In this document: positions 403 through 22,581 of the stretch, piece after piece
Layout of the letters: each line of letters begins with the position of its first letter
How positions within the stretch are numbered: position 1 is the stretch's first letter
Origin: a virus
Direction: 5' to 3' (one strand)
Length of the DNA stretch: 64,000 bases
IMG/VR virus record: IMGVR_UViG_3300043427_003242
Location: 21,233 to 85,232 of that record
Made by a program: the position numbers and the translations under genes
The notes under the pieces: generated by a model
Databases searched by the model: none
Seen by the model: the letters and a program-made list of their open reading frames with translations, nothing else
Told to the model about the DNA's origin: nothing

Positions 403-431
403 TTGACAGCATTTCCTGACAGTGCTATTAT
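403..431 (+). promoter_or_regulatory. Sigma70-type promoter for psbA
   Basis: TTGACA at 403-408 is a perfect -35 box, followed after 17 bp by TATTAT at 426-431 (5 of 6 matches to TATAAT). Transcription would start near 438, leaving a leader of about 160 nt before the psbA ATG at 597. The host-type promoter implies psbA is transcribed by unmodified host RNA polymerase early in infection. Confidence 0.75.
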
Positions 432-443
432 ATATACATACAC

Positions 444-568
444 GGGGTTAAGGAATGTAACAATTTCTTACCTACGGAATCTTCTCCAACCGGGATCACG
501 AGAAGTAAAGCATCCCTCATACCCACGATGGAGGGTGTCGTGGGAATACTTGTAACCATTCAGTCCCC
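444..568 (+). ncRNA. Structured psbA leader RNA (PhotoRC-like candidate) with predicted pseudoknot
   Basis: The leader can fold into a closed domain. GGGG (444-447) and GAATG (453-457) pair with CCCC (565-568) and CATTC (557-561). Inside it, CTTCTC (481-486) pairs with GAGAAG (500-505). CCCACGA (522-528) pairs with TCGTGGG (538-544), and the loop of that hairpin contains GAGGG (531-535), which is complementary to CCCTC (514-518), giving an H-type pseudoknot. Structured leaders called PhotoRC-I and PhotoRC-II are known upstream of psbA in marine cyanobacteria and cyanophages. Assignment to that family is from memory and position, not from a covariance search. Confidence 0.55.
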
Positions 569-596: not shown

Positions 597-2113
597 ATGA
601 CTGCTACAATTGCTCAACAACGTTCCACAAATACCTGGAACCAATTCTGTGAGTGGGTTACTTCCACTAACAATCGTCTGTATGTTGGTTGGTTCGGAGT
701 CCTGATGATTCCTTGCCTGCTTGCTGCTACGACTTGCTTCATTATCGCTTTCGTTGGTGCTCCCCCAGTGGACATCGACGGCATTCGTGAACCAGTTGCT
801 GGTTCTCTAATGTACGGAAACAACATCATCTCTGGTGCCGTTGTTCCTTCTTCTAATGCTATCGGACTTCACTTCTATCCTATCTGGGAAGCTGCTTCTC
901 TTGATGAATGGCTTTATAACGGTGGACCTTTCCAACTCGTTGTATTTCACTTCCTCATCGGCATCTATGCTTATATGGGACGTGAATGGGAACTCTCTTA
1001 CCGTCTAGGTATGCGTCCTTGGATCTGTGTTGCTTACAGCGCACCTGTTGCTGCTGCTTCTGCCGTATTCCTGGTTTATCCTTTCGGTCAAGGTTCTTTC
1101 TCTGATGCGATGCCTCTTGGTATCTCTGGTACGTTTAACTATATGCTTGTCTTCCAAGCAGAACACAATATCCTGATGCACCCCTTCCACATGCTTGGAG
1201 TTGCTGGTGTGTTCGGTGGTTCACTCTTCAGTGCTATGCACGGTTCACTGGTGACTTCTTCACTGGTTCGTGAAACTACTGAGAATGAGTCACAGAACTA
1301 CGGATATAAGTTCGGTCAAGAAGAAGAGACCTACAACATCGTTGCTGCTCACGGGTATTTTGGACGCCTTATTTTTCAATATGCTTCCTTTAATAACTCC
1401 CGTTCACTGCACTTCTTCCTGGCTGCCTGGCCTGTTGTAGGCATCTGGTTCACTGCTCTTGGTGTTTCTACGATGGCATTTAACCTCAATCGTCGGGGTC
1501 CCGTCCTAGCAATTTGACGGTAAACATTGGGTGAATTGCTGGAAGCCCTCCATATTGGGTAATCAGCAGCCAAGTCCAAGACGCTTCTTGGAAAGGTTCA
1601 GAGACTAGGTGGTTTCTCAAGCGTGAGATGTAATACACCAATAGCGCCCAACATCCTAAATGGATGAAGATATAGTCCACTCCATAAGAATGGTAAACTT
1701 ATGGGTTCAGTGCAACGGTTTCAACTTCAACCAGTCTATCGTTGATAGTCAAGGTAAAGTTATTAACACTTGGGCAGATGTCCTAAATCGTGCAGGACTT
1801 GGAATGGAAGTCATGCATGAACGCAACGCTCGATTTGTGGGCGCTCTTATCTGAAAAGGTAAGATAAACTTCGGATGAATTGCTGGAAACCCTAACGGGC
1901 AATCAGCAGCCAAGCCAATCACGAACTTGATTGGAAGGTTCAGAGACTAGGTGGTTTCTCAAGCGTGAGATGTAATACACCAATAGCGTCCGACACCTAA
2001 CCTCATAAAGAGTATGGTGAAGATATAGTCCAAACTGTAAGCACAACTTCCCACTTGACCTTGCAGCAGCAGAAGCAACACCAGTTGCTCTCACTGCTCC
2101 TTCAATCGGTTGA
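597..2113 (+). CDS. psbA: Photosystem II D1 protein, split into three exons by two group I introns
   Basis: Exons are 597-1486, 1713-1830 and 2042-2113; joined they give a 359-residue D1. Landmark residues fall at their standard numbers: Tyr161 (YZ), Asp170, His190, His198, His215, Ser264, His272, His332, Glu333, His337, Asp342 and Ala344. Residue 130 is Glu, as in the high-light D1 form of cyanobacteria. Without splicing, exon 1 reads into the first intron and stops at 1515-1517 after 306 residues. Splice points were set by restoring the D1 sequence and fit the group I rule: the exon ends in U and the intron ends in G. The protein replaces the rapidly turned-over host D1 in thylakoids. Its own promoter and leader lie upstream and a terminator follows at 2121. 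This is an intron-split gene, not a pseudogene. Confidence 0.95.
1487..1712 (+). mobile_element. Group I intron 1 in psbA (226 nt, no internal ORF)
   Basis: It interrupts Leu297 after the second codon base; exon 1 ends in CCT and the intron ends in CAGTG. Group I core elements are visible: P7 strands in the GAGACTA segment (1600-1606) and the ATATAGTCC segment (about 1670-1678), and a hairpin built on TCTCA/TGAGA between them. A GGGT near 1530 could serve as guide sequence pairing with the exon end ACCU, with the usual G-U at the splice site. It is too short to encode a homing endonuclease, so mobility would depend on one in trans, such as the nuclease at 2201. Confidence 0.88.
1831..2041 (+). 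mobile_element. Group I intron 2 in psbA (211 nt, no internal ORF)
   Basis: It lies exactly between Ala336 (GCT) and His337 (CAC) of D1; the 5' exon ends in U and the intron ends in G (GTAAG). GGCG at 1839-1842 can pair with the exon end CGCU. The P7 and hairpin core is the same as in intron 1, including a 54-nt identical block (1935-1988 here, 1593-1646 in intron 1), so the two are recent relatives. Its size is close to the psbA intron I recall from cyanophage S-PM2, to which it may correspond. Confidence 0.88.
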
Positions 2114-2120
2114 TAAAATT

Positions 2121-2147
2121 AGAGACCCTTTACGGGTCTCTTTTTTT
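2121..2147 (+). terminator. Rho-independent terminator after psbA
   Basis: AGAGACCC and GGGTCTC form a stem with loop TTTAC, followed by seven T residues, 7 bp after the psbA stop codon. Confidence 0.85.
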
Positions 2148-2200: not shown

Positions 2201-2725
2201 ATGAGAACCACGAAGATTTGTAGAAGTTGCAACAAAGAACTTTCTGTCTCTGATTTTAGAGAAGGTCGTAGAAGGTGTATAAGATGTGAAGAAAAAACTT
2301 ATGCAGAAAACTGGGCGAGTAAAACTCATATCGTCTGCAACAAGTGTGGTGTAGAAAAACTTATTTCAGAATATTATAAAGGTCATAAGAGGTGTAAAGA
2401 GTGTTATAGTAAAGACTATAAAGATAAGAGACCTTCTTATGACGATAAGAAAGACTATATGTTGAAATATACTTATGGTGAAGATTTTGGATTAGAGCAA
2501 TATAAAAACCTTCTACAAGAACAAAATGAAGTTTGTGTTATTTGTTTTAATCCAAATACAAATGGTAGAAAGGATAGTAATAACCTTTATGTGGACCACG
2601 ACCATAAGACAGGAAAGGTTCGTGGATTGCTTTGTAGCAACTGCAACAGAATGCTAGGATTGGTTGGAGACAACTTAGATACATTAAGCAACGCAGTTAG
2701 ATACCTACAAAAGCATAAGCACTAA
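2201..2725 (+). CDS. Endonuclease VII-family homing endonuclease (F-CphI-like)
   Basis: 174 residues. The N-terminal half has paired CxxC zinc knuckles (CRSC, CIRC, CNKC, CKEC). The C-terminal half has the recombination endonuclease VII signature: CVIC near 111, a VDHDHKTGKVRGLLCSNCN segment near 131-149 holding the His-rich catalytic site, and an RMLG motif. A freestanding nuclease of this kind (F-CphI, about 177 residues) lies downstream of the intron-containing psbA in cyanophage S-PM2 and cleaves intronless psbA. Size and position here match that case. It probably promotes spread of one or both psbA introns; which insertion site it cuts is not known. Confidence 0.85.
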   Translation: MRTTKICRSCNKELSVSDFREGRRRCIRCEEKTYAENWASKTHIVCNKCGVEKLISEYYKGHKRCKECYSKDYKDKRPSYDDKKDYMLKYTYGEDFGLEQYKNLLQEQNEVCVICFNPNTNGRKDSNNLYVDHDHKTGKVRGLLCSNCNRMLGLVGDNLDTLSNAVRYLQKHKH

Positions 2726-2786: not shown

Positions 2787-3848
2787 ATGGTTTCATCTAC
2801 ACTTTCAAAACCTATTCAACAAAGGGGGTGGTTTGATGTCTTGGACGACTGGCTTAAGAGAGATCGTTTCGTTTTTGTTGGCTGGTCTGGACTTCTTCTT
2901 TTTCCCACTGCTTATCTTGCTCTTGGTGGTTGGCTTACTGGGACAACTTTCGTTACGAGTTGGTACACTCACGGGTTGGCAAGTTCCTATCTGGAGGGTG
3001 CAAACTTTCTTACTGTGGCAGTTTCTACTCCAGCAGATTCTATGGGTCATTCTCTTATGCTTCTCTGGGGTCCTGAGGCTCAAGGGGATTTCGTCAGGTG
3101 GTGCCAACTTGGGGGACTCTGGCCTTTTGTGGCGCTCCACGGGGCTTTCGCTCTAATCGGTTTTATGCTTCGTCAGTTTGAGATTGCTCGTTTAGTAGGG
3201 ATTAGACCCTACAACGCAATCGCATTCTCTGGTCCTATTGCAGTATTCGTTTCTGTATTCCTGATGTATCCACTGGGTCAATCCAGTTGGTTCTTTGCTC
3301 CCTCTTTTGGAGTGGCAGCAATCTTCAGGTTCCTTCTGTTCCTTCAGGGTTTCCACAACTGGACCCTCAACCCCTTCCATATGATGGGAGTTGCTGGTAT
3401 ACTGGGTGGAGCACTGCTCTGTGCCATTCACGGAGCAACTGTAGAAAACACTCTATTTGAAGACAGTGAACAAGCAAACACATTCAAGGCATTTGAACCA
3501 ACACAAGAGGAAGAGACCTATTCAATGGTTACTGCTAACAGATTCTGGTCTCAGATTTTCGGTATTGCCTTTAGTAACAAGCGTTGGTTGCACTTTTTTA
3601 TGCTTTTCGTTCCAGTTATGGGTCTCTGGACTTCTTCTATCGGCATCATCGGTCTTGCTCTTAACCTCCGTGCTTACGACTTTGTATCTCAGGAAATTAG
3701 AGCAGCAGAAGATCCAGAATTTGAGACATTTTACACAAAAAATATACTTCTTAATGAGGGATTAAGGGCATGGATGGCTCCAGTTGATCAACCTGGGGAA
3801 CGATTTGTCTTTCCAGATGAAGTTCTCCCTCGTGGGAACGCCTTGTGA
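2787..3848 (+). CDS. psbD: Photosystem II D2 protein
   Basis: 353 residues, close to the usual 351-353. The N-terminus ([20 protein letters not shown]) and the internal [22 protein letters not shown] segment, with histidines for chlorophyll and non-heme iron, are typical of D2. The C-terminus [12 protein letters not shown] is also D2-like. The start is fixed by a GAGGAG ribosome-binding site just upstream. D2 pairs with D1 in the photosystem II reaction centre in the thylakoid. Unlike psbA the gene is uninterrupted. A terminator follows at 3876. Confidence 0.96.
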
Positions 3849-3949: not shown

Positions 3950-4525
3950 ATGAATATGGGATTAAATAAAAAATCAATTCCTTGCGGAGGATTAGTTGGA
4001 AAAACTTTTGGGAGACTGACTGTTTTAAGAGAATATAGTAATAAAAAATATATTCTATGCGAGTGCTCTTGTTCTTGCGGTGGAAATACAACTTCAACAA
4101 GAAGAGAGGGATTGTTAAATGGTAGAACTCAATCTTGTGGATGTATTCGTAAAGAAATAGTAAACGCCAAAAATCGTGAAAGATTTGACCCCAACGCAGT
4201 ATCAAAATCAGTTGAATATAGAATTTTGACCAGAGCAAAAAGTAGAGCAAAGCAAAATAATATTCCATTCAATCTGGAACTTATTGATATAGTCATTCCC
4301 GAAACTTGCCCTTTACTTGGTATTCCTATTGAGATACAACCTAAAAAAGGTTATCATCCAAATAGTCCTTCATTAGATAAAATCATTCCAGAAAAAGGAT
4401 ACATAAAAGGTAATGTGTGGGTCATAAGCAATAGAGCCAACACACTCAAAAACGACGCTTCCCTACAAGAACTCCAAACACTCGTAGAAAATCTCAAATG
4501 CTCACATTACTCGCAGCATTCATAG
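3950..4525 (+). CDS. HNH-type freestanding homing endonuclease
   Basis: 191 residues. The N-terminal region (GKTFGRLTVL near 18, then CECSCSCGG and CGCIRK) looks like a zinc-binding DNA-recognition domain. The C-terminal part carries CPLLGIP near 121 and SLDKIIPEKGYIKGNVWVIS near 141-160, a pattern found in phage HNH nucleases, and ends in the usual RANTLKNDA segment. It sits immediately after psbD, so it could mobilise into or near photosystem genes; the target is unknown. It has its own late promoter and its end overlaps the small ORF at 4498. Confidence 0.75.
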   Translation: MNMGLNKKSIPCGGLVGKTFGRLTVLREYSNKKYILCECSCSCGGNTTSTRREGLLNGRTQSCGCIRKEIVNAKNRERFDPNAVSKSVEYRILTRAKSRAKQNNIPFNLELIDIVIPETCPLLGIPIEIQPKKGYHPNSPSLDKIIPEKGYIKGNVWVISNRANTLKNDASLQELQTLVENLKCSHYSQHS

Positions 4526-4721: not shown

Positions 4722-6083
4722 ATGGAAGAACAACTGCAACTTGAGGAAACTCAACGAACAAATCAACAGTCACAGGATTCAACTCCACACGATCCTAGTG
4801 CAGCACTCAGAAATCCAGAAGGATATACGCAAGTTCCTGATGTTCTTGCTGAAACTCCGATAGAAGAAGTTGAACCAATTAATGTTGGCCAGGTTCAGGT
4901 CACAAATCCTCAATTAGAAGATGCAAATTTTAATGAGGTCTTTGGTGGTTCGGGTGATGTTCCTGTTCTTGGTGATAATGATACTGCTAGAACTAGAGTA
5001 TCAAATTCAATTCCATTATCAGCAATCAATAATGCTTCTCTGGATTCTTTACCTAACACTAACAATATTACTAACAACAGTTTCAACAGTACTGATAATC
5101 CTGTTGATGAAGAAGAAATTGTAGATCCTCCTGTTGATCCTCCTGTAGATCCTCCTGTAGATCCTCCTGTTGATCCTCCAGTAGACCCACCTGTTGATCC
5201 TCCTGTTGATCCTCCAGTAGACCCACCTGTTGATCCTCCAGTAGACCCACCTGTTGATCCTCCTGTTGATCCTCCAGTAGACCCACCTGTTGATCCTCCT
5301 GTTGATCCTCCTGTTGATCCTCCAGTAGACCCACCTGTTGATCCTCCTGTTGATCCTCCTGTTGATCCCGAAGACCCTGAGGATCCTGAAGATCCAGAGG
5401 ATCCCGAAGACCCTGAAGACCCTGAAGACCCTGAGGATCCCGAAGACCCTGAAGACCCTGAGGATCCCGAAGATCCTGAAGACCCTGAGGATCCCGAAGA
5501 CCCTGAGGATCCCGAAGATCCTGAAGATCCAGAGGATCCAGAGGATCCAGAGGATCCTGAAGGTCCTGGTAAAGGAAATCCTGGTAATGATAAGGAAGTT
5601 GGTAATTCGCCTTGGGATGGAGAAACAGGAGCATCTGATAATCCAGGAAAAGGAAATCATCAAGATGGGCAAGACCCAGAAACTAATCAACCACCAGGCG
5701 ACTCAAAGAACGATGGATCAGGACAAAATAATACTCCTGGAAATGGTAATGATAATGGAGGAGGTGGAGGAGATGTTCCTGAAAGAGGGCAAAATAATGG
5801 ATGGGGTAACGGAGATGATGATGCTCCAGGTAATTCAGGACCTAATAATGACGCTGAAAATGATCAAACTCCAGGTTCAAATACTGGAGATCTTGTAGAT
5901 AAATTCTTGAAGGATCATTCTTTCAACGATGAATATGATAATCGTGGAGGAAGACCAGAGTTTGAGTATGAACCACAGAATACTGACGATGTAAATATTC
6001 CAGATGTTCCAGAACCTCTGATTGATTTTCAAGTTCCTGATTATCCAGATGATCTTGGTGGGTTTGACTTTACAGGTCAGTAA
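4722..6083 (+). CDS. Acidic, disordered Asp-Pro repeat protein
   Basis: 453 residues in three parts. Residues 1-133 are acidic and Asn/Gln-rich. Residues about 134-280 are tandem repeats, first DPPV units and then DPE units. Residues about 281-453 are Gly, Asn, Asp and Pro-rich, with GKGNPGND-like stretches. There are no Cys residues, membrane segments or recognised domains, so the protein should be extended, strongly negative and disordered. Codons inside the repeats are nearly invariant, indicating growth by slippage or unequal recombination. A late promoter at 4688 suggests a virion role such as a decoration or surface fibre; this is inference. Confidence 0.7.
   Translation: MEEQLQLEETQRTNQQSQDSTPHDPSAALRNPEGYTQVPDVLAETPIEEVEPINVGQVQVTNPQLEDANFNEVFGGSGDVPVLGDNDTARTRVSNSIPLSAINNASLDSLPNTNNITNNSFNSTDNPVDEEEIVDPPVDPPVDPPVDPPVDPPVDPPVDPPVDPPVDPPVDPPVDPPVDPPVDPPVDPPVDPPVDPPVDPPVDPPVDPPVDPPVDPEDPEDPEDPEDPEDPEDPEDPEDPEDPEDPEDPEDPEDPEDPEDPEDPEDPEDPEDPEDPEDPEGPGKGNPGNDKEVGNSPWDGETGASDNPGKGNHQDGQDPETNQPPGDSKNDGSGQNNTPGNGNDNGGGGGDVPERGQNNGWGNGDDDAPGNSGPNNDAENDQTPGSNTGDLVDKFLKDHSFNDEYDNRGGRPEFEYEPQNTDDVNIPDVPEPLIDFQVPDYPDDLGGFDFTGQ
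5121..5560 (+). repeat. Tandem DNA repeats encoding DPPV and DPE units
   Basis: A block of 12-nt GTTGATCCTCCT-like units changes near 5367 into 9-nt GAAGACCCT-like units. Units differ mainly at synonymous sites, and higher-order patterns recur, for example GTAGACCCACCT alternating with GTTGATCCTCCT. Confidence 0.9.
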
Positions 6084-20210: not shown

Positions 20211-22581
20211 TAATCCAAGTAACAAAGTAAAATCTGAATCAATTGATGAAGTAATTCTCAGGTTACTTGGATTAAATGTTGGCGTCGAATTAGATTATCA
20301 AACATATCACGATATTATTAAAAAGAAGTTAGCGATAGCAAGACTTGCGGGAAAGGAACTTCCAAGAGAAGAAGATGAACTTTTAAGAAATGAATTTAAA
20401 AGAGTTCGTACCTTAAAAGATAAAGGTCTTAGATTCAAGGTTAAAAAAGCAAAAACAAAAGTTAGTTTTACTAAGACTTCTAGTATTCCCGGACAAAAAA
20501 AACTTCCATCTTCTGCAGCAATTATAAAAGCGCAGAAAGGAAAACTTGCATCAACCACAAATGCAATATCAGTATCTTCTAATTTTGAAACTGATGGTAT
20601 TAAAAATACTTTAGATTCAATTTTAACTATTTTAAGTTCTAAATTTAAATTTGATCAGAAACAATCTGATAAGGAAAGAAGAGATAAAGAAACAGAAGGA
20701 AGAGGAAAAAAAGAATCTGCATTAGAAGGATTTAAAAAAGGAATAGGTACAATAGTATCCACCACTAAAAAATTACTTTCACCTTTTCAGGCAATTATTG
20801 ATCGTATTTTTAAATTCATATTTTTCACTTTACTAGGAAGAGGATTTACTTCCTTTATGGAGTGGATGAGTAATAAAGGAAATCAAAATAAGTTTAATTC
20901 TTTTATAGAATTCTTATCGGATCACTGGCCTGCACTTGCTGGACTTTATATTTTATTTGGAACTGGTTTTGGAAAATTAGTTCGTGGACTGCTGAAAGGC
21001 GTTACCCGAATGATTATTGCGATTGGAATGAATATTCCAAAAATATTTGGGTTCATAAGAAAAAATAAAAAACTTGCGTTCTTAGCACTTGCTGCAGCAC
21101 CTTTAGTAAGTAGAGAGATTGGAAATTTATTTACAGATAAAGAAACACCAGAGTCAGGATTAATTCCAAAAACAAATCCAGAACTTAATGAAGCACAAAA
21201 ATCTGTAGATAAAGCACAAGATACTCGGGTTCCAAAATTTAATTTTGGGGGAATGATTCCTAGTTTTAAAATGGGAGGATTTAATCCATATGGTGGAATG
21301 GATTTCTCACAAGGAGTTCCAATTGCTGGTGCTGGATCTGACGATACTCTGATTGCTGCAAAAACTGGAGAAGCAATTCTCACAGAAAAAGATCAACAAG
21401 ATATTGGACAAAGATATGTTGATAGACGTACTGGGCAACCATTAAACATACCACAATATCTTGCGGGAAGAAAACCAGGATCCGTGAATATGAGTAATCT
21501 TAGATTTCCTGGATTTGGTGGGGGATTTAATCTTGGCGGAATGATACCAAGATTTAATATTGGAGGAATGGTAGGAAAACCAAAATCACCATTATCTGGA
21601 ACTTCCAAGTTTGGAGATCTTCCTTTAATAAAAGCCGCCAACTCTGCTGGAATAAAGGGATTAGAATTAGCATCTTTCTTATCTCAAATGTCTCACGAAA
21701 CTGGAGGATATAAGTGGAGTACTGAACTTGGTGGTGGAAGTAGCAGTTATAGTGGTGGAAAAAAATACAAAGGTAGAGGATATATCCAATTAACTCACGA
21801 TTATAATTATAAAAAGTATGGAGATAAATTGGGAATTGATTTGGTAAATAATCCAGATCTTGCAACAAATAGTGATATTGCTGCAAAAATTGCTGTGATG
21901 TATTGGAAAGAAAATGTAAGACCTGCAGTTGGTAATAATTGGAATGATGTTTTTTCTGCATCTAGAGCAATAAACAATCCATCTGCTTCCAGTCCAAAAG
22001 GAATTAATGGATATGAAGATAGAGTTTCTAGGTTCAATCAATATAGAGAGAAACTCAACTCCGGCGCGTTAAACCTAGAAGCACCTGCAAAACCAAAAGC
22101 AAAGAAAAAATCTTTAGGCATAATGAAAACACTAGGTACTGCTCTTAACTTTATGCCATCTATGCTTCCATTTATGCGAGGTGGAGAAATTAAGGAAAAT
22201 ACTGGAATGAATATTCCTGGAGCGACAGCCGATAGACAATTAATTAATGTTGCAGTTCAACCAGGTGAATCCAAATATATTTTTACTAAACAAGCAACTG
22301 AAAGAGGAGCATCTGAGATTGCAAATTTAATTCAGGCTAAACTGGATCCAAATTCAGAAGCAGCAAGAAGAGGATATAGATCAATTACTCCATACAAAAC
22401 TTTTGGTGGATCGGGAATGAACGGTATGATGACTCTACCACCTATGGTTGCATCTGGAGGTGGATCATCAAGACCAAGAGCAGCAGGACTTGCTGGTGCA
22501 TCTGAAGTTCCTAATTTTTCTGCAGTTGCTCCAAGTAATAATAGAGCAGAGTATGCATCAATCTACGGTCTGAGAGGATAA
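20203..22581 (+). CDS. Long hub/tape-measure-like protein with GH19-type muralytic domain
   Basis: 792 residues. Residues 1-190 are basic and helical. Hydrophobic segments near 198-212, 240-262 and 288-305 could insert into membrane. Residues 325-460 have Gly-rich GGMIPSFKMGG-like repeats. Residues about 473-615 form a GH19 chitinase/lysozyme-like domain: SQMSHETGGYKW holds the catalytic Glu and GRGYIQLTHDYNYKKYG is the family signature. The C-terminus returns to GGG repeats. It probably cuts peptidoglycan during tail penetration. The layout (assembly chaperones, then two long proteins) suggests a tape-measure or hub role. Confidence 0.72.
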   Translation: MVSNPSNKVKSESIDEVILRLLGLNVGVELDYQTYHDIIKKKLAIARLAGKELPREEDELLRNEFKRVRTLKDKGLRFKVKKAKTKVSFTKTSSIPGQKKLPSSAAIIKAQKGKLASTTNAISVSSNFETDGIKNTLDSILTILSSKFKFDQKQSDKERRDKETEGRGKKESALEGFKKGIGTIVSTTKKLLSPFQAIIDRIFKFIFFTLLGRGFTSFMEWMSNKGNQNKFNSFIEFLSDHWPALAGLYILFGTGFGKLVRGLLKGVTRMIIAIGMNIPKIFGFIRKNKKLAFLALAAAPLVSREIGNLFTDKETPESGLIPKTNPELNEAQKSVDKAQDTRVPKFNFGGMIPSFKMGGFNPYGGMDFSQGVPIAGAGSDDTLIAAKTGEAILTEKDQQDIGQRYVDRRTGQPLNIPQYLAGRKPGSVNMSNLRFPGFGGGFNLGGMIPRFNIGGMVGKPKSPLSGTSKFGDLPLIKAANSAGIKGLELASFLSQMSHETGGYKWSTELGGGSSSYSGGKKYKGRGYIQLTHDYNYKKYGDKLGIDLVNNPDLATNSDIAAKIAVMYWKENVRPAVGNNWNDVFSASRAINNPSASSPKGINGYEDRVSRFNQYREKLNSGALNLEAPAKPKAKKKSLGIMKTLGTALNFMPSMLPFMRGGEIKENTGMNIPGATADRQLINVAVQPGESKYIFTKQATERGASEIANLIQAKLDPNSEAARRGYRSITPYKTFGGSGMNGMMTLPPMVASGGGSSRPRAAGLAGASEVPNFSAVAPSNNRAEYASIYGLRG

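Follow-up and report, generated by a model that had tools for sequence, protein, structure and literature searches.

How did a single viral photosynthesis gene come to hold two group I introns, and what keeps each of them in place? The psbA product, D1, forms the rapidly turned-over core of photosystem II, and cyanophage-made D1 keeps infected cells photosynthesising. We analysed a 64,000-nucleotide stretch of a metagenomic virus contig (IMG/VR record IMGVR_UViG_3300043427_003242, positions 21,233 to 85,232), here called the window, in which psbA is divided into three exons. Our reading, which we regard as likely, is that this is a cyanophage psbA with two ORF-less group I ribozymes of old, site-specific lineages, the first of which is most likely spread by a nuclease encoded downstream of the gene. 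The features of the locus are listed in Table 1. The promoter-like site upstream of psbA agrees with the consensus at 11 of 12 positions, which is weak evidence.

Table 1. Features of the psbA locus (positions in the window)
Feature	Position	Strand	Remarks
Promoter-like site 5' of psbA	403..431	+	TTGACA, 17 nt, TATTAT, extended TG; consensus scan
PhotoRC-II RNA motif, psbA leader	468..557	+	RF01717, 49.5 bits (gathering score 39)
psbA	597..2113	+	D1 gene, three exons and two group I introns
psbA exon 1	597..1486	+	890 nt, codons 1-297, phase 2; D1 restored on splicing
Group I intron 1	1487..1712	+	226 nt, ORF-less, inserted after CDS nt 890; RF00028
psbA exon 2	1713..1830	+	118 nt; D1 restored on splicing
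Group I intron 2	1831..2041	+	211 nt, ORF-less, inserted after CDS nt 1008 (between A336 and H337); RF00028
psbA exon 3, including stop codon	2042..2113	+	72 nt; D1 restored on splicing
Intrinsic-terminator-like hairpin and T run, 3' of psbA	2121..2141	+	scan
Free-standing endonuclease VII-type gene	2201..2725	+	174 aa, PF02945; probable partner nuclease of intron 1

Two introns in the psbA gene of the window

A cmscan search against all Rfam families matched the group I intron family RF00028 at 1477-1704 (84.8 bits, E=2.9e-21) and at 1821-2053 (77.6 bits, E=4.3e-19), both above the gathering score of 50 bits, with the core P3-P8 recognised by the family model in each intron; no third match was found within the 64-kb window. 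This is the Infernal search that a preliminary description of the DNA had proposed, and at the level of sequence it confirms the two separate group I introns claimed there. The boundaries given in that description (1487-1712 and 1831-2041) are exact, as is the 118-nt middle exon between them: when both segments are taken out, the remaining 890, 118 and 72 nt encode an uninterrupted D1 of 359 residues. It had also held that D1 is obtained only if both introns are removed, and this is borne out by translation of the partly spliced forms, in which D1 stops after 306 residues if intron 1 is retained and after 343 if intron 2 alone is retained. Skipping of exon 2 breaks the reading frame.

Both introns likewise follow the described splice rule, in that a U paired with a G of the internal guide precedes the intron and the last intron base is G. 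The guide of intron 1 forms P1 as ACCU/GGGU and makes four of five P10 pairs, with one mismatch; that of intron 2 forms P1 as CGCU/GGCG and all five P10 pairs (CACAA/UUGUG). The distinctness of the two guides argues against mis-splicing between the introns. The core helices of both introns show compensatory changes among relatives, P4 and P7 being invariant and hence uninformative either way. In the alignment of 31 distinct introns from the site of intron 1, helices P2-P9, including the P7 pseudoknot, are paired in 99.3% of cells and 17 pairs have two-sided changes; the covariation score was reached by no shuffle, and slid structures scored far lower. The 12 introns from the site of intron 2 are paired in 97.0% of cells, with 11 two-sided pairs.

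Insertion sites in cultured phages and uncultivated viruses

The suggestion in the preliminary description that two introns in one psbA had gone undescribed does not stand. Two introns in one phage psbA are already on record: the GenBank entry of S-CBWM1 (MG450654) annotates two group I introns, after nt 649 and 1011, and by tblastn and cmscan the psbA of S-SRM01 has three, after nt 276, 750 and 1002. Neither of the window's sites is occupied in these two phages. S-CBWM1 also differs from the window in that its first intron is 784 nt long with an endonuclease ORF of its own, and no F-CphI-like gene was matched downstream. S-SRM01 shares with the window the multiple psbA introns and an F-CphI-like gene downstream, but its first intron carries an HNH ORF. 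Its authors described two partial psbA genes and suspected just one intron, holding an endonuclease (PMC8557907), whereas the sequence (locus L001, 1327-3729; MW015081 207378-209780) reads as one gene. S-PM2, with a single psbA intron after nt 1002, resembles the window: this group I intron has no ORF, measures about 210 nt and lies close to the 3' end of psbA, and the gene is followed directly by a free-standing endonuclease VII-type gene and then psbD. S-PM2 differs in having one intron instead of two, at site 1002 rather than at 890 and 1008. Because intron 2 of the window is inserted after CDS nt 1008, not 1002, it was ruled out as an S-PM2-type intron. This difference in site had escaped the preliminary description, as had the PhotoRC-II RNA 5' of psbA and the F-CphI-like gene 3' of it. 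A site-890 intron was found in no cultured phage among the matches in 50,697 records, and of the four cultured psbA genes that contain introns, none has one at site 1008. In S-PM2 psbA (L002, 3480-3530), GGGAAGTT near the 3' end of the intron is complementary to AACTTCCC in the downstream exon, and a hairpin across the 3' splice site is possible.

Another conserved phage gene known to hold more than one group I intron is nrdE, of which Staphylococcus phage Twort has two and Brochothrix phage A9 three plus an intein (PMC3653736); the gene, the hosts and the intron sequences are different, and the introns are fewer than in the richest psbA genes found here.

Scans of uncultivated viruses for patterns that join the 3' core of an intron to psbA exon sequence retrieved 50 contigs at site 890, 21 at 1002-1011, 13 at 276 and 22 at 750. 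The scan for introns near codon 218 gave none; its pattern was probably too strict, since introns at nt 645 entered through other patterns. Splice reconstruction of 95 loci yielded 211 introns at 18 fixed positions, and 61 loci have at least two introns. A preceding U and a final G were found in all introns but one (47 of 47 at the site of intron 1, 28 of 29 at that of intron 2), a result partly built in, as the reconstruction favours such boundaries among those that fit D1 equally. The exception, in locus L012, is a boundary artefact in a locus with a second, diverged exon 3. The P1 test provides an independent check on the boundaries: at least four P1 pairs are formed by 210 of the 211 introns and by 14% of shuffled ones. 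The census loci had been selected for carrying introns. Of 54 full-length psbA genes in which site 890 is empty, 52 are intron-free, so that psbA without introns is the common state in that sample.

In 17 further loci, which include near-copies, sites 890 and 1008 both hold introns, and the two-intron arrangement of the window is therefore not a chance occurrence. At the upper end, the psbA gene of IMGVR_UViG_3300042987_001812 (locus L021, 6653-11260, plus strand) has nine group I introns, each coinciding with an Rfam match, eight above the gathering score and one at 48.7 bits. Its exons measure 179, 138, 182, 57, 14, 75, 245, 102, 19 and 69 nt, and removal of all nine introns leaves an intact D1 of 359 residues with 94% identity to that of the window. 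Loci L077 and L027 belong to a single contig, where the coding sequence of one stretch continues that of the other, and they have seven introns between them. At the 3' end of psbA in six loci (L023, L046, L065, L068, L076 and L093), two group I introns flank a micro-exon of 16 or 19 nt, lying between CDS nt 989 or 992 and 1008 or 1011. These observations mark psbA as a strong target for group I introns; no earlier account of a psbA gene with up to nine introns, at 18 sites, was found in the open-licence text of PubMed Central.

Origin of the introns and the downstream nuclease

In intron trees, psbA introns cluster by insertion site and not by host gene. Introns of site 890, those of the short type at site 1008 and part of those at site 1011 form families related to one another, and a second site-1008 lineage of 251-258 nt clusters with site-992 introns. 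A 54-nt block from P7 to P7.2 is identical in introns 1 and 2 of the window, which might be taken to mean that intron 2 is a recent copy of intron 1, made in this genome by intragenic transposition or reverse splicing. We consider such an origin very improbable, because an AU test rejects sisterhood of the two introns (p_AU=0.003), because their guides differ and each is suited to its own site, and because site-890 introns of other genomes share the block just as fully, so that having it in common does not set the window's pair apart. On the last of these grounds, conversion between introns 1 and 2 inside this genome was rejected as the source of the block. Clustering by site, together with the rejected sisterhood, suggests instead that the introns reached new positions long ago and were then maintained at each, which is what homing would predict.

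The integrity of the locus could be doubted in two other ways. The 3' end of intron 2 reads GTAAG, as against GGAAG in 10 and GGGAG in one of its 11 relatives, and the intron may splice less efficiently for it. From this one substitution, which is shared by the identical loci L010, L041 and L043 and alters a position that the 11 other introns of site 1008 conserve, it could be argued that this intron, or both, is decaying and splices poorly, so that little full-length D1 is made or its output is limited by splicing; every core helix and both guides are intact, however, and the exons encode an undamaged D1, and we judge decay to be unlikely. As the window is a metagenomic virus contig, the introns might also have been joined into psbA by misassembly, but this is hardly credible when L010 and L041 have the identical arrangement and the 17 other loci occupied at the same two sites have diverged sequence.

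Two further observations concern the relatives of the introns. The site-890 introns carry clearly different versions of P7.1/P7.2 at one site (alignment A1, columns 111-164), and the same alternatives are met again at other sites, which gives the impression of modules swapped between introns. In Klebsiella phages, an unannotated stretch (for example MT708547, 302955-303076) has 78% identity to part of intron 1 of the window; so a related group I intron appears to occur in an unrelated phage group.

The ORF directly 3' of psbA, at the position of an F-CphI-type (endonuclease VII / DHHRN) gene, encodes a C-terminal endonuclease VII domain (PF02945, E=7.7e-22, 77.4 bits) and has 40% identity over 137 aa to F-CphI, the S-PM2 nuclease; unlike F-CphI, it is apparently tied to the upstream intron. 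An orthologue lies 3' of psbA in 28 of the 45 loci that have intron 890 and in none of the 38 that do not, an association with a Fisher probability of 1e-10 when kinship is ignored; none was found in 66 control contigs whose 890 site is empty. Three of the orthologues are identical and the others, where the ORF is intact, have 85-91% identity. Against the link, 17 of the 45 intron-890 loci are without this nuclease. On the exon 1 tree the nuclease and intron 890 never disagree in direction, with on average 2.8 agreeing and 0 opposing supported pairs, independent supported pairs that are too few for significance. These sequence comparisons make the ORF most likely the partner nuclease of intron 1. 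A less probable alternative, which still deserves serious weight, is that it serves intron 2 or is unrelated to either intron: intron 2 is the nearest, the gene beginning 160 nt 3' of it, and the S-PM2 intron served by F-CphI has almost the same location (nt 1002). Yet intron 890 is present in all 28 loci with an orthologue while intron 1008 is present in 14 and absent from 14, and no orthologue is present in eight loci where site 1008 holds an intron and site 890 is empty.

Other observations were made around these genes. On the reverse strand of L012, psbA exon 3 is found twice (2392-2463 and 3079-3150, oriented coordinates), the copies being 62% identical, and the endonuclease gene sits between the first and the second, diverged exon 3; by its sequence, the doubling looks like the footprint of nuclease arrival by recombination into psbA. 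In the window, a second endonuclease-like ORF follows psbD (3950-4525, plus strand), with a match to the endonuclease family phrog_3322 and none in Pfam, and might be the partner nuclease of some other site in psbA or psbD. It is followed by a 453-aa ORF (4722-6083, plus strand) in which a long tandem series of VDPP repeats gives way to EDP repeats (5120-5568).

Proposed mechanism and implications

From the sequence, the structure and its covariation, the guides and the restored reading frame, we infer splicing of the following kind. Each ribozyme would fold independently in the psbA transcript, its internal guide pairing with its own upstream exon to form P1 and its own downstream exon to form P10, and two guanosine-initiated transesterifications would excise each intron to leave a continuous D1 message. 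Introns 1 and 2 would represent old lineages within a single intron family, each specific to its site and maintained and spread there through recombination when phages co-infect a cell. The agent that propagates intron 1 is most likely the endonuclease encoded directly 3' of psbA, which would cut psbA alleles lacking intron 1 and be blocked from cutting its own genome by the intron there. Such spread would be collaborative homing as for F-CphI and S-PM2, in which F-CphI cleaves psbA alleles that have no intron and is stopped where the intron is present (PMC6083498). Splicing of the single S-PM2 psbA intron has been reported to respond to light (PMC5931967), and by analogy splicing-based control of D1 output is possible in the window as well.

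More broadly, and with slightly less assurance than we have in our reading of the window, we think it probable that the psbA gene of cyanophages serves group I introns in general as a landing place, with at least 18 fixed points in its 1080 nt, most having their own intron lineage and several their own nuclease. The virus with nine introns would then need nine splicing events to make D1, across exons as short as 14 nt, and the window would be a two-intron member with a nuclease dedicated to intron 1. There is also a consequence for annotation, as the psbA of S-SRM01 has been entered as two partial D1 genes though it reads as one gene. Genes that call for two to nine splicing events can be used to test whether stacked introns throttle viral D1, and how adjacent, closely related ribozymes avoid splicing with the wrong partner. 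With its recurring sites, a separate lineage at each and a nuclease apparently tied to one of them, psbA offers a natural series of cases in which to study the pairing of homing endonucleases with introns.
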